Shown: positions 24,044-58,102 of the stretch, one piece after another
How positions within the stretch are numbered: the first letter of the stretch is position 1
How the letters are laid out: each line of letters opens with the position of its first letter
Source of the DNA: Cupriavidus sp. WGlv3
Lineage (GTDB): Bacteria > Pseudomonadota > Gammaproteobacteria > Burkholderiales > Burkholderiaceae
Length of the DNA stretch: 64,000 bases
Reading direction: 5' to 3'
Assembly (NCBI RefSeq): GCF_023952475.1
Contig: NZ_JALHRX010000013.1
Location: forward strand, 62,001 to 126,000
Made by a program: the position numbers and the translations under genes
Notes under the pieces: generated by a model
What the model saw: the letters and a program-made list of their open reading frames with translations, nothing else
The model's database searches: none
Told to the model about the DNA's origin: nothing

Positions 24044-24472
24044 TTAGATTTCCAGCGCCTTGGGCTGCTGCGCTTCGTGCGGATGCTCGGCTTCGGCGTA
24101 AACCTTCAGCTTCTTGATCATCGCGTAGCCCAGCGGACCCTTCGGCAGCATGCCCTTGACAGCCTTTTCCAGGGCACGGCCCGGGAAACGCTGCTGCATC
24201 TTGCCGAACGTCGTTTCGTAGATACCGCCCGGGTAACCCGAATGGCGATAGTACTTCTTGTCCGTTTCCTTGGTACCCGTGACACGCAGCTTGGCTGCGT
24301 TGACGATGATGATGTAATCACCGGTGTCGACGTGCGGAGTGAATTCCGGCTTGTGCTTGCCGCGCAGACGGCGTGCCACTTCGCTGGCAACACGGCCGAG
24401 GACTTTGTCCGTCGCGTCAATCACGTACCAGTCGCGCTTTACCTCATGAGGCTTGGCGGAAAAGGTCTTCAT
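24044..24472 (-). CDS. rplM: Large ribosomal subunit protein uL13
   Basis: The 142-residue L13 has the usual [20 protein letters not shown] start, [17 protein letters not shown] and the [16 protein letters not shown]-terminal region. It starts the rplM-rpsI operon. A TATAAT on the minus strand at 24609-24614 is the obvious -10 element and gives a leader of about 130 bases, long enough for autogenous control by L13; I could not identify a specific binding structure. Confidence 0.99.
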
Positions 24473-24608: not shown

Positions 24609-24638
24609 ATTATACTGGCGGGCGTGGCGAGCGCACAA
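24609..24638 (-). promoter_or_regulatory. rplM-rpsI promoter
   Basis: Reading the minus strand, TTGTGC (24633-24638) and a perfect TATAAT (24609-24614) are spaced by 18 bases. The element lies between the sRNA terminator at 24732-24762 and rplM, showing that the ribosomal operon does not depend on the upstream transcript. Confidence 0.75.
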
Positions 24639-24731
24639 GCAAAGACTGAAGTTTTCGTCAAGACCGACGCCGATCGCCGCGGTTCTGGGGCCGCCCAAGG
24701 CACTTGCAGGCCAACGGCATTTGTTCAGGCG

Positions 24732-24762
24732 AAAAAAAACCCAAGCGTTTGAGCTTGGGTTT
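24732..24762 (-). terminator. Intrinsic terminator of the candidate small RNA
   Basis: AAACCCAAGC (24737-24746) and GCTTGGGTTT (24753-24762) are perfect 10-base inverted repeats with a 6-base loop. On the minus strand the stem is followed by a run of eight T (24732-24739). On the plus strand only three T follow, so the orientation is clear. Confidence 0.88.
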
Positions 24763-24889
24763 GAATCCACCAAAGGAGGAGGGTGGAGGAGACACCTGGA
24801 GATCGACGGAGGACTTGCGGGCGGTGCGGCGGGCTTGGCCGGGGCTTCAATTTCGCACTCTGGCGCGCTGTCTGCGCCGTCGTTCAATG
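24732..24889 (-). ncRNA. Candidate small RNA with anti-Shine-Dalgarno loop
   Basis: A complete minus-strand transcription unit is visible without an open reading frame of coding character. The promoter is at 24896-24923, and an intrinsic terminator at 24732-24762 ends in eight U residues, giving about 158 nt. Near the 5' end a GGCGC/GCGCC hairpin can form. At 24767-24786 the transcript folds CCACC/GGUGG around the 10-base loop CUCCUCCUUU, exposing a sequence complementary to Shine-Dalgarno sites. More CCUCC words lie at 24785-24789 and 24808-24812. Loops of this CUCCUCC type are known from alpha-proteobacterial sRNAs; I know of no named beta-proteobacterial family at this place. It lies 260 bases upstream of rplM, which has its own promoter. 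An attenuated rplM leader is the main alternative. Confidence 0.6.
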
Positions 24890-24895
24890 ATTGGA

Positions 24896-24923
24896 ATTAT
24901 ACCTAGGGTTTGCCCGGATGCAA
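24896..24923 (-). promoter_or_regulatory. Sigma-70 promoter of the candidate small RNA
   Basis: On the minus strand TTGCAT (24918-24923) and a perfect TATAAT (24896-24901) are separated by 16 bases. The expected start is near 24889. Confidence 0.75.
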
Positions 24924-24938
24924 GGGAAATTTGCACTG

Positions 24939-24963
24939 CGAAATATGATTTCGTATTACGAAA
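24939..24963. promoter_or_regulatory. Two overlapping palindromes upstream of the small-RNA promoter
   Basis: CGAAAT-ATG-ATTTCG (24939-24953) and TTTCGTA-T-TACGAAA (24949-24963) are both perfect and share the central TTTCG. Three alternating CGAAA half-sites result, about one helical turn apart. Relative to the predicted sRNA start they cover about -50 to -74, an activator-like position. I cannot name the regulator. Confidence 0.6.
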
Positions 24964-25188
24964 CGTTACCGGGGACTGCTCGGCTTGAATCGATACCTTA
25001 AAAATCAATTACTTACAGAACAAAGGAAGGTGTCATCCCAACGACATACTAGAGGAAACCCTCAGGTTTTCTAAGGTTATCGGCGCCGATGCCCCGAACT
25101 TGAGCTTGCCATATACTGGGAAAAGCAAGATTCGAGATCACGCGCTTGTGATCACAAACCGACAAAACGAAGCACAGGAACGAACAAA

Positions 25189-25611
25189 ATGGAATGCAAA
25201 GTAACATGGATGGGCGCCGACGGCATGAGCTTCGTTGCCCAGACCGGCAGCGGCCATATCGTTGCCATGGACGGCGCTCCCGAAGGTGGTGGCCACAACC
25301 TGGCCCCGCGACCCATGGAAATGGTGCTACTGGGCACCGGCGGCTGCACCGCCTATGACGTGGTGCTGATCCTCAAGCGCGGCCGCCAGGACGTTACCGG
25401 CTGCAGCGTGCAGCTGCAGGCCGAACGAGCCGGCGAAGATCCCAAGGTGTTCACCCGTATCAACTTCCATTTTGTGGTCACCGGCAAGAATCTCAACCCC
25501 GCCACGGTCGAGCGCGCGATCAAGCTGTCGCACGAGAAGTACTGCTCGGCGTCGATCATGCTGGCCAAGACGGCCGAGATCACGCACACGCTGCAAATCG
25601 TCGAAGGCTGA
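25189..25611 (+). CDS. OsmC family protein
   Basis: The 140-residue protein belongs to the OsmC/Ohr superfamily of thiol peroxidases. The family helix carries LLGTGGCTAYDVVLILKRGRQD with the first redox cysteine at residue 45. The second lies in SHEKYCSASIML near residue 123. This is the YhfA-like branch rather than Ohr, judged by length and the GGCTAYDV form. It would reduce organic or fatty-acid peroxides in the cytoplasm. AGGA at 25175-25178 precedes the ATG. TATACT at 25112-25117 is a possible -10 element with a poor -35. A small inverted repeat GATCAC/GTGATC (25136-25153) lies between promoter and start. Confidence 0.9.
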   Translation: MECKVTWMGADGMSFVAQTGSGHIVAMDGAPEGGGHNLAPRPMEMVLLGTGGCTAYDVVLILKRGRQDVTGCSVQLQAERAGEDPKVFTRINFHFVVTGKNLNPATVERAIKLSHEKYCSASIMLAKTAEITHTLQIVEG

Positions 25612-25666: not shown

Positions 25667-26010
25667 AAGCAAAGCAGGCCGATAAGCCGGATTCTGTGCG
25701 CCCCGCCCGCCTTGCGGCGCGCGGCGCGTGACAACCATTCCTCTAGGCCGGCTGTTACCAGCCGGCTCCAGCTCCCTACCCGCAGACTCAGCGGGCCGCT
25801 TCATCGCCTGCCTATTTGGGATTGCTCCAGGTGGAGGTTACCGCGTTTCACCCTTCCCGCCGGGCGAACCCGGCGGCAAGACTCGTCTCTGTGGCCCTAT
25901 TCCGCACGTTGCCGTGGATGGCTGTTAGCCAACACCCTGCCCTGTGGAGTCCGGACTTTCCTCCCCCTGCACCTTGCGGTGCAGGCAGCGGTTGCCTGGC
26001 CTGCTTTGCG
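25667..26010 (-). ncRNA. rnpB: RNase P RNA (type A)
   Basis: The minus strand contains the universal RNase P RNA core: GGAAAGTCCGGACTCC near the 5' side and ACAGAATCCGGCTTAT near the 3' side. The terminal P1 helix is visible as AAAGCAGGCC (25998-26007) pairing with GGCCTGCTTT (25671-25680). The RNA is the catalytic subunit that matures tRNA 5' ends. Its 5' end near 26010 fits a -10 element TAGACT at 26017-26022. The promoter therefore lies just beyond the end of the DUF3025 gene, with its -35 region touching that gene. The 3' end may be a few bases off. Confidence 0.95.
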
Positions 26011-40539: not shown

Positions 40540-41496
40540 TTATTCGAAAGGCGTCGGCGACTCGGCAAGATAGCTGAGCCCGAACGCGCGCGCGCCGACA
40601 TTCAGCGCCACCGTCAGGCTCATCGGCGCCAGCATCAGCTCGACGCCGTGGCTGCGCGCGGTATTCGCCAGCGACTGGTAGGCCGGCATCGCGCGCACCT
40701 CGTCCAGCGGGCCCGCGTAGCACGCCGCGATCGCCGGCACCAGCAGGTCGCCGGCGCGCAGGCATTGCTCGGCATGCTGCAGCACGCGGCGCCTGCCCTC
40801 TTCGGAGCCGCGCGCCCTGGCGATGGCTTCGGTCTGGCCACGATGCATATGCACCACGGGGCGGAGGTTGAACGCGCTGCCCATCACGTAGCGGCCCCAG
40901 GTGATGCTGCCCTCTCCCTTCTGCCGAGCGCGGGTGTACAGGTAGAGCAGTTCGTCCGGCACCAGGAACATGTGGGCGGCATCGCGCAGGCGCGTTTCCA
41001 CGGCCTCGCGTACGACTTGCGGACTGGCACCGTCCAGCGCCATGCGCGCGGCTTCGCGCACGATCAGCGCCTGGCCCGGACCGATCGCGCCGGTGTCGAC
41101 CACGGTCAGGTCGAACAGCCCCGATCGTCCCGCTTCCCTGCGCAGCCGCACGCTGCGCGCCACGGTGCCGATCACCGCGCCGCTGGCATGCGCATACAGC
41201 TTGCTGCGCGTGCTGGCGATGGTGAACAGGATGGCGCGGTCGCACTGCGCGACCACGTTGCGCAGCAGGTGCTCCTCCAGCTCGCGCTCGACCATCGGCA
41301 CCGATTCGGCATAGTGGTCCTGGCGGCCGACCAGGTATTGCTGGTAGAGCCGCGGCAGCGCGTCTTCGTCGCGCGTGTCGGCGACGAAGTGCTCGCCGGC
41401 GCGGATGCGGAACGGAATGGTGTGGACCTTCAGCGCGGCCATGACATCGCGTGGCAAGTCGCACGCGGCGTCGGCCAGGATGGCTGTCTCCTGCAT
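40540..41496 (-). CDS. DegV family protein (fatty-acid binding) in the beta-oxidation operon
   Basis: The 318-residue protein follows the DegV layout: TAILADAACDLP at the N-terminus, ILFTIASTRSKLYAHA near residue 90, VVDTGAIGPGQALIVREAARMA near residue 130 and a variable second domain. DegV proteins bind a fatty acid between two domains; in Firmicutes they act as FakB with the kinase FakA. No FakA partner is seen here. A GGAGGAG site precedes the ATG at 41496. Placement between thiolase and enoyl-CoA hydratase genes supports a fatty-acid carrier or sensor role, which is an inference. Confidence 0.85.
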   Translation of the reverse strand: MQETAILADAACDLPRDVMAALKVHTIPFRIRAGEHFVADTRDEDALPRLYQQYLVGRQDHYAESVPMVERELEEHLLRNVVAQCDRAILFTIASTRSKLYAHASGAVIGTVARSVRLRREAGRSGLFDLTVVDTGAIGPGQALIVREAARMALDGASPQVVREAVETRLRDAAHMFLVPDELLYLYTRARQKGEGSITWGRYVMGSAFNLRPVVHMHRGQTEAIARARGSEEGRRRVLQHAEQCLRAGDLLVPAIAACYAGPLDEVRAMPAYQSLANTARSHGVELMLAPMSLTVALNVGARAFGLSYLAESPTPFE

Positions 41497-41608
41497 ATTG
41501 TGTCTCCTCCCCTGCTGGTGACCCGCGTCGCGGGCGGCAGCCCCCGGTACTGCTTTCTTCACCTGATGCAGAAGGGCGGGATGGCCCCGGGCCATCCCGC
41601 AGGCGCGT

Positions 41609-57481: not shown

Positions 57482-58102
57482 TCAGGCGCCGCGCCGGCGC
57501 CATACCTGCCAGCGCTCCTGCCCCTGGAACACCGGCAGCGGCGCGGCCGAGGGGCGGTCCTCGATGCGCTCGAAGGCCGGCCCGAGCAGCGCATCGAGCT
57601 CTGCTTCCGGCATCGCGAACGGCGGTCCGCCACGGTTCTCGCCCAGGTAGAAGTAGCCAGCCAGCAGCCCGCCCGGCGGCAGCAGCTCGGCCACGCGGGC
57701 GCCATAGGCCGCGCGCAGCGCCGGCGGCAGCGCGCACAGGAAGGCGCGCTCGTAGATCAGCTCGCACGCCGGCTGCGGCGTGAAGGCGAAGAAATCGCCC
57801 TGCTGCACCACCGCCCCGGCCGGCCCTAGCGCGCGTCGCGCCGACGCCACTGCCTGCGGCGAGAAGTCGATCGCCGTCACCGGCCAGCCGCGCTCGAACA
57901 GCCACGCCGCCTCCCAGCCGTTGCCGCAGCCGGGCACCAGCGTGGGACACGGCTGGCGGCCCTCGATAAAGCTGCGGAATTCCTCGGGCACGCCGCCCAG
58001 GTCCCAGGGCGTGAAGCCCTCCCTGAAGCGCTCGTCCCAGAACGCCGGGTCGCCGGCATTGCGCGTGGTAAAGCCGGGCACCGGCCTGGTGGTATCGCCC
58101 AT
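57482..58102 (-). CDS. TPMT-family S-adenosylmethionine-dependent methyltransferase
   Basis: The 206-residue protein has the thiopurine methyltransferase layout: FWDERFREGFTPWDLGG near the N-terminus, the SAM loop LVPGCGNGWEAAWLFERG near residue 56, VTAIDFSPQAV, GDFFAF and ELIYERAFLCALPP near residue 113. Bacterial members methylate thiols, selenium or tellurium compounds or halides. The substrate is not evident. It lies 36 bases after ubiB on the same strand, but a ubiquinone role is unlikely because UbiG and UbiE do those methylations. Confidence 0.9.
   Translation of the reverse strand: MGDTTRPVPGFTTRNAGDPAFWDERFREGFTPWDLGGVPEEFRSFIEGRQPCPTLVPGCGNGWEAAWLFERGWPVTAIDFSPQAVASARRALGPAGAVVQQGDFFAFTPQPACELIYERAFLCALPPALRAAYGARVAELLPPGGLLAGYFYLGENRGGPPFAMPEAELDALLGPAFERIEDRPSAAPLPVFQGQERWQVWRRRGA

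Follow-up and report, generated by a model that had tools for sequence, protein, structure and literature searches.

A Cupriavidus copy of the RF02278 double-hairpin small RNA between osmC and rplM, with CU-rich strands that fit ribosome-binding sites

Burkholderia cenocepacia has four homologues of the Rfam family RF02278, ncS03, ncS05, ncS27 and ncS62, which have been termed 'double-hairpin RNAs' and whose unpaired segments, rich in C and U, are complementary to ribosome-binding sites (PMC5688073). Levels of ncS27 are higher in stationary-phase, starved and biofilm cells as well as in glucose medium, and its overexpression slowed growth (PMC5688073). The ncS27 gene sits between BCAL3348a and BCAL3349 (PMC4603805), and work from 2019, as reported by PMC10987360, describes NcS27 as conserved in Burkholderiales and acting on amino-acid and carbohydrate use. 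In Bordetella pertussis, S17 has a sigma-A promoter, is processed by RNase E from 190 to 67 nt and associates with Hfq; it represses BP2158 by pairing with the 5′ UTR, which compensatory mutations in Site 1 have demonstrated, Site 3 contributing a minor part (PMC11722255). Four family members are listed for Herbaspirillum (PMC7011215). A transcription start site study of C. metallidurans under copper and control conditions gave 35 putative sRNAs and states that the B. cenocepacia and B. pertussis sRNAs were not detected (PMC7563307).

The window, by which we mean the whole stretch of 64,000 nucleotides of Cupriavidus sp. WGlv3 DNA analysed here, carries an sRNA gene on its minus strand. A sequence-only reading had described this gene as a TTGCAT-16-TATAAT promoter, a hairpin and a terminator with eight U, and its coordinates and anatomy were upheld by direct reading, folding and conservation. 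The elements of the gene are as follows, all on the minus strand.

24918-24923: −35 element TTGCAT, by direct reading of the sequence.
24896-24901: −10 element TATAAT, perfect, by direct reading of the sequence.
24732-24888: putative primary transcript of about 157 nt, from A 24888 to the end of the U run, deduced from promoter and terminator.
24795-24888: variable 5′ leader, 94 nt in the window, with no conserved reading frame.
24732-24794: conserved core of 63 nt, equal to Rfam RF02278 and likely the mature short form (Rfam match and fold z; processing by analogy with S17S, 67 nt, and ncS27).
24782-24794: Site 1, UGUCUCCUCCACC, complement GGUGGAGGAGACA; the first 7 nt are unpaired and the remainder lies inside hairpin 1.
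24766-24787: hairpin 1, UCCACC/GGUGGA, with loop CUCCUCCUUU (Site 2), from the fold.
24737-24762: terminator stem-loop, from the fold, with the U run at 24739-24732 (eight T).

The core reads UGUCUCC-UCCACC-CUCCUCCUUU-GGUGGA-UUC, followed by a 10-bp terminator stem and the U run. In the promoter, TTGCAT and TATAAT are separated by a 16-nt spacer, and the RNA is likely to start at A 24888. A consensus promoter scan of the window did not pick up this promoter, because TTGCAT matches TTGACA at only three of six bases. TTGC and TATAAT were nevertheless invariant among the 32 distinct sequences obtained from 34 Cupriavidus-group loci. This set consists of 30 loci from a genus search together with C. 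gilardii, C. lacunae, Cupriavidus sp. amp6 and 'Ralstonia sp. 25mfcol4.1', with none dropped; the loci were excised with an exact core expression, and the invariance of the core in their alignment is partly by construction.

A further conserved element lies upstream of the −35 element, at 24924-24965 on the minus strand. It consists of the palindrome TTTCGTAATACGAAA at 24949-24963 followed by ATTTCGCA-N-TGCAAATTT. The pattern TTTC..A.T...AAT was found upstream of the −35 element in 51 of 96 loci, compared with 0.3 percent of mononucleotide shuffles, and the element is possibly a regulator site. A genome search with the palindrome TTTCGYANTRCGAAA gave one other site only, in an uninformative context, and we therefore propose no regulator.

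In Rfam release 15, positions 24731-24794 (minus strand) matched RF02278, Betaproteobacteria_toxic_sRNA, whose gathering score is 50, with 70.6 bits (E 3.2e-12). The match is full length (1-64 of 64) and takes in both hairpins, the CU-rich 5′ end and loop, and the U-tail. The traits of the family are found here: two hairpins, the second a Rho-independent terminator, and an unpaired CU-rich anti-Shine-Dalgarno 5′ end and loop. The window sRNA is a member of a family that has been catalogued and, in part, studied, that of the 'toxic small RNA' or double-hairpin RNAs; to the Rfam core the window adds a long upstream leader. The match above the gathering score overturns the description of this RNA as undescribed. 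The statement that no beta-proteobacterial counterpart had been described falls as well, in view of the published accounts of B. cenocepacia ncS27 with its homologues (PMC5688073) and of B. pertussis S17 (PMC11722255).

Other families matched less well. Neisseria NmsRb (RF02877), which is also beta-proteobacterial and has a CU-rich loop, showed weak similarity (25.1 bits, below its gathering score of 52), and the window sRNA is not a member of it. Matches to the anti-hemB and ncS16 families were likewise below their gathering scores. The CUCCUCC-loop sRNAs of alpha-proteobacteria have a CU-rich anti-Shine-Dalgarno loop; no alpha-proteobacterial sRNA family was present among the five Rfam matches of the window sRNA at E ≤ 1.

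RF02278 was matched at E ≤ 0.001 in all 60 genomes at the genus level, the source genome included (58 over the cut-off), and in 187 of 200 at the family level (182 over the cut-off). At the order level 80 of 120 genomes matched, 49 of them over the cut-off, and at the class level 83 of 274, with three over it. Weak matches are under-counted in searches of more than 40 genomes, because these use stricter filters. None of 14 control genomes contained RF02278. The source genome has five matches at E ≤ 0.001 (70.6, 53.5, 46.8, 36 and 33.1 bits), two of which are over the cut-off. Four of these are paralogues of the window sRNA (L002 to L005), the 36- and 33.1-bit ones being weak; L002 and L003 retain the 5′ end GTCTCCTCCACC, and their loops differ. 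These further copies could share or carry the sRNA function.

Among the published relatives, ncS27 is of the same family and is the only one of the four B. cenocepacia homologues that is made as a longer precursor and has a processing site. It differs in length, 92 nt against about 157 nt here, with a leader of about 30 nt (by subtraction) against 94 nt. In the window and in named Burkholderia genomes the sRNA gene lies between osmC-like and rplM genes in the same orientation as rplM, and the J2315 gene is known by its locus tags. To judge from gene order, the ncS27 locus is probably this same osmC-rplM locus, which would make ncS27 a putative strict orthologue. S17 resembles the window sRNA in the TTGCAT −35 element that precedes S17/S17S, and, by description rather than letter by letter, in its precursor of about 190 nt, mature form of about 67 nt and conserved CU-rich 5′ end (PMC11722255). 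Unlike the window sRNA it is not found at rplM, its neighbours being a glycosyltransferase gene and coq7, and its level is linked to Bvg (PMC11722255).

To evaluate the structure, the core and the full RNA were folded alongside shuffled sequences. For the 63-nt core the folding energy was −23.1 kcal/mol (z −4.93), and none of 200 shuffles was as good. The full 159-nt RNA was less striking (z −2.09, six of 200 shuffles as good), and the folding signal therefore sits in the 3′ 63 nt. UGUCUCC and the loop CUCCUCCUUU are unpaired in the predicted fold, and CU-rich stretches are also present in relatives. From 130 rplM-locus sequences we parsed 96 cores, 68 of them distinct; the core expression missed L106 and L145, although both carry the core. 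GTCTCCTCCACC, whose first nine bases the search expression prescribes, was exact in 93 of the 96 loci, and the 27-nt stretch up to GGTGG was exact in 53.

Conservation of hairpin and terminator in relatives, the lack of which the sequence-only reading had named as a refuting result, was confirmed in all 68 distinct cores, with at least five pairs in hairpin 1 and at least six in the terminator. Pairs were counted by folding each sequence, because a MAFFT alignment set the terminator arms out of register. Several pair types occurred at four positions of the terminator. Core positions 1-9 being fixed by the search expression, variation in hairpin 1 was seen at position 11, where 67 cores have C-G and one T-A, and at position 12, with C-G in 65, T-G in one and no pair in two. 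The terminator is thus well supported by covariation, but there is little covariation evidence for hairpin 1, which is nearly invariant, so that its support is mainly sequence conservation.

The leader ranged from 61 to 118 nt across the 34 loci. Further CCUCC words had been noted upstream in the RNA, and one is indeed present in the window at 24812-24808 (minus strand), but such a word occurs in the leaders of only 19 of the 34 loci and is therefore not constant, unlike the CU words of the core. The RNA had also been judged to lack coding character, and no conserved reading frame was found in the 34 loci. Open frames do exist in the window, for example one of 147 aa from the TTG at 24887; frames open from a conserved leader TTG or GTG in most of the 34 loci, with 36-44 aa from the GTG in seven of them, and S17L of B. 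pertussis bears a putative 32-aa ORF (PMC11722255). A dual-function RNA whose leader encodes a small protein could be proposed on these grounds. However, the frames from conserved starts stand in all three phases relative to the core (TTG 14, 10 and 8; GTG 14, 12 and 7 of the 34 loci) and their stops are scattered, 3 to 286 codons on, as expected of GC-rich non-coding DNA. The GTG frame of the window has three codons, and one of 33 leaders contained a frame of 15 aa or more that begins with ATG. We consider a protein-coding leader scarcely credible.

The sRNA gene is bordered by the following features.

24044-24472, minus strand: rplM (ribosomal protein L13), downstream neighbour; Pfam PF00572, E 2e-46.
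24609-24638, minus strand: rplM promoter TTGTGC-18-TATAAT, separate from the sRNA and conserved in relatives.
25189-25611, plus strand: OsmC-family gene, divergent upstream neighbour; Pfam PF02566, E 5e-18.

The identity of rpsI, like that of rplM, was confirmed with Pfam. RNase P RNA (RF00010, 246.7 bits) is encoded at 25667-26007 on the minus strand, and it was also found upstream of the sRNA in seven of ten sRNA-bearing named loci, as well as in L087 and L106.

The sRNA was flanked by osmC and rplM in 29 of 30 fetched genus loci, the remaining one lying at a contig edge. The best 80 of 589 named rplM loci were also examined. A core upstream of rplM on the osmC side was found by pattern in 48 of these 80, leaving out one pattern match without the hairpin (L123), and an Rfam scan of the remaining 32 added one more (L151). 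Thirteen pattern-positive loci were also scanned with Rfam, and all 13 were over the cut-off. By pattern and Rfam together, the sRNA is present upstream of rplM in 49 of the best 80 of 589 loci, among them loci of Burkholderia and Ralstonia, two of the genera for which a covariance-model search had been suggested. RF02278 is 712-738 nt upstream of rplM, and osmC is on its far side, in four named Burkholderia loci, of which one is from B. aenigmatica; in four other Burkholderia sp. records the core is 278-286 nt from rplM by pattern. Published accounts of relatives, as far as their open-licence text was available, do not name rplM as a neighbour of family members, and so do not contradict the earlier view that the position beside rplM is an undescribed detail.

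RF02278 at the gathering score was absent from 31 of the best 80 of 589 named rplM loci, although some of these contigs end near rplM (L102 and L112, for example). All 11 sampled Massilia, Duganella, Rugamonas and Janthinobacterium rplM loci lacked it, and in eight of them the osmC-rplM gap is 223-244 nt. The other negative loci were mostly further Oxalobacteraceae-type or unclassified assemblies, with two from Paraburkholderia. The Massilia-type loci suggest either that the sRNA was lost or that the ancestral state was different.

An element directly upstream of rplM and on the same strand, with its position relative to rplM retained in many relatives, might be the 5′ leader or attenuator of rplM, its terminator regulating read-through and so controlling L13 synthesis. 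Between the terminator and the start codon, however, lies a conserved promoter of rplM itself: CTTGT(G/A) and TATA(A/C)T were found 120-179 nt before the rplM start in all 33 loci with rplM (34 were examined, L030 having no rplM). Read-through from the sRNA is therefore not needed for rplM, and the sRNA is best read as a separate transcription unit. The distance of 712-738 nt in the four named Burkholderia loci, the situation of Rfam paralogues elsewhere in the source genome and the published homologues, which are independent sRNAs, also speak against an attenuator, and the 31 loci without RF02278 indicate that rplM does not need the sRNA. We regard control of L13 synthesis by this element as very improbable. 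The gene is instead a discrete, conserved sRNA gene with CU-rich single strands that fit Shine-Dalgarno regions, as had been proposed.

To look for candidate targets, as the sequence-only reading had suggested, the genome was searched for Site 1 complements at ribosome-binding sites. GGAGGAGACA-N0-9-ATG occurred at 13 sites and the reversed control at none, and these 13 gene starts are predicted targets. Each of the 13 ATGs begins an open frame; one frame has 71 aa and the other 12 have 282 aa or more. The 12 longer genes were assigned with Pfam, and nine of them were transporters or catabolic enzymes by our own sorting. The types comprise AMP-binding acyl-CoA synthetase, TctC receptor, three MFS transporters, branched-chain permease, periplasmic receptor, TauD dioxygenase, FAD-binding monooxygenase, Gcw_chp, YCF48-like protein and DegV. 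One predicted site lies in the window.

41494-41510, minus strand: predicted target site GGAGGAGACACAATATG, with GGAGGAGACA before the DegV-family gene at 40543-41496 (minus strand).

Predicted duplexes of the targets with the first 24 nt of the core ranged from −19.6 to −28.9 kcal/mol, the RNA's own folding being ignored. The Site 2 complement AGGAGGAGG-N0-9-ATG gave five genome sites against two in its control, which is no clear enrichment. Since this complement shows hardly any enrichment, and the one S17 target proven by mutation pairs with Sites 1 and 3 instead of the hairpin 1 loop, the role of that loop is uncertain.

As GGAGGAGACA is itself like a Shine-Dalgarno sequence, the reversed control is a control for chance only. 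A fairer comparison used the complement of the 5′ end UGUCUCC, GGAGACA, in a 464-kb sample made up of the window and 20 stretches. Before the ATGs of frames with 150 aa or more, GGAGACA was the commonest GGAGnnn (24 of 140), and it was absent before the ATGs of frames shorter than 30 aa (0 of 59; Fisher P 0.0002); the permuted tail GGAGAAC occurred eight and three times respectively. Removal of duplicates left 23 GGAGACA starts, of which 17 precede uptake or catabolic genes, compared with seven of 17 controls (20 drawn at random, 17 scanned; P 0.039), targets and controls having been sorted by the author and not blind. A TPMT-family methyltransferase gene at 57485-58102 (minus strand) also has a GGAGACA ribosome-binding site.

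CUCCUCC pairs with any strong Shine-Dalgarno sequence, and the family owes its name to its ability to inhibit growth of E. coli (PMC5688073). The sRNA might then act as a general brake on growth that binds any GGAGG and has no defined regulon. Yet the Site 1 matches run past the Shine-Dalgarno sequence into GACA, the GACA tail is enriched, and starts with this tail favour uptake and catabolic genes in the comparison above, although by the author's categories. S17S, moreover, is reported to be not similarly toxic and hardly affected growth of E. coli (PMC11722255). A general brake is thus unlikely, if less so than the two alternatives already discussed.

GGAGACA-ATG was also counted in larger sets. 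The source genome has 288 GGAGACA sites and 128 GGAGAAC sites. When the 120 genomes of the order set are ranked by GGAGACA-ATG density, the top nine all exceed the RF02278 cut-off, as do 11 of the top 12. Median densities per Mb were 13.3 in genomes over the cut-off (n=49), 7.9 in those with weak matches (n=31) and 10.1 in those with none (n=40). The difference between the first and last groups gave P 0.006 without phylogenetic correction; as genomes with weak matches fall below non-carriers, presence versus absence gives no clean split. Counterexamples were found among the 274 class genomes, on which the permuted control GGAGAAC was run: two genomes (G353 and G262) have 135 and 97 GGAGACA-ATG sites and no RF02278 at E ≤ 0.001. 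We found no paper linking GGAGACA with Shine-Dalgarno sequences in the open-licence literature, which does not show the tag to be unpublished. It is conceivable, though we hold it to be somewhat doubtful, that the UGUCUCC 5′ end has shaped ribosome-binding sites genome-wide, with GGAGACA as an 'address' on uptake and catabolic genes forming a global nutrient-uptake regulon in carrier-rich Burkholderiales.

Taken together, we favour, with a probability of roughly 0.87, the reading that the window holds the Cupriavidus-group copy of a trans-acting RF02278 sRNA, whose leader is presumably cut off and whose CU-rich strands would block the ribosome-binding sites of uptake and catabolic genes. Judging from the promoter and terminator, a housekeeping-sigma promoter would give an RNA of about 157 nt that ends at the intrinsic terminator. 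By analogy with S17 and ncS27, an endonuclease, presumably RNase E, would cut off the leader to leave the core of about 63 nt with 5′ UGUCUCC, and Hfq is its putative partner. Pairing of the unpaired CU-rich stretches, chiefly the 5′ end, with GGAGG(AGACA) would then cover ribosome-binding sites and prevent translation. Repression of transporters and catabolic enzymes may then lower nutrient uptake during slow growth, a direction suggested by the NcS27 and S17 work. The non-detection of the B. cenocepacia and B. pertussis sRNAs in C. metallidurans under copper and control conditions (PMC7563307) speaks against this reading. The translational regulator proposed by the sequence-only reading is thus most likely a repressor of translation.

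The novelty of the locus is low, and the ribosome-binding-site tag is the part worth following. With the claim of novelty corrected, the locus takes its place in a family that has experimental anchors, and its mechanism can therefore be stated rather than guessed. The published picture is extended by a conserved osmC-sRNA-rplM locus, by leader lengths that differ between relatives and by a possible GGAGACA tag at ribosome-binding sites, which would allow direct prediction of the regulon. If the tag is real, one RNA family and a shared ribosome-binding-site tag would go together, and the members of the regulon could be read from sequence.
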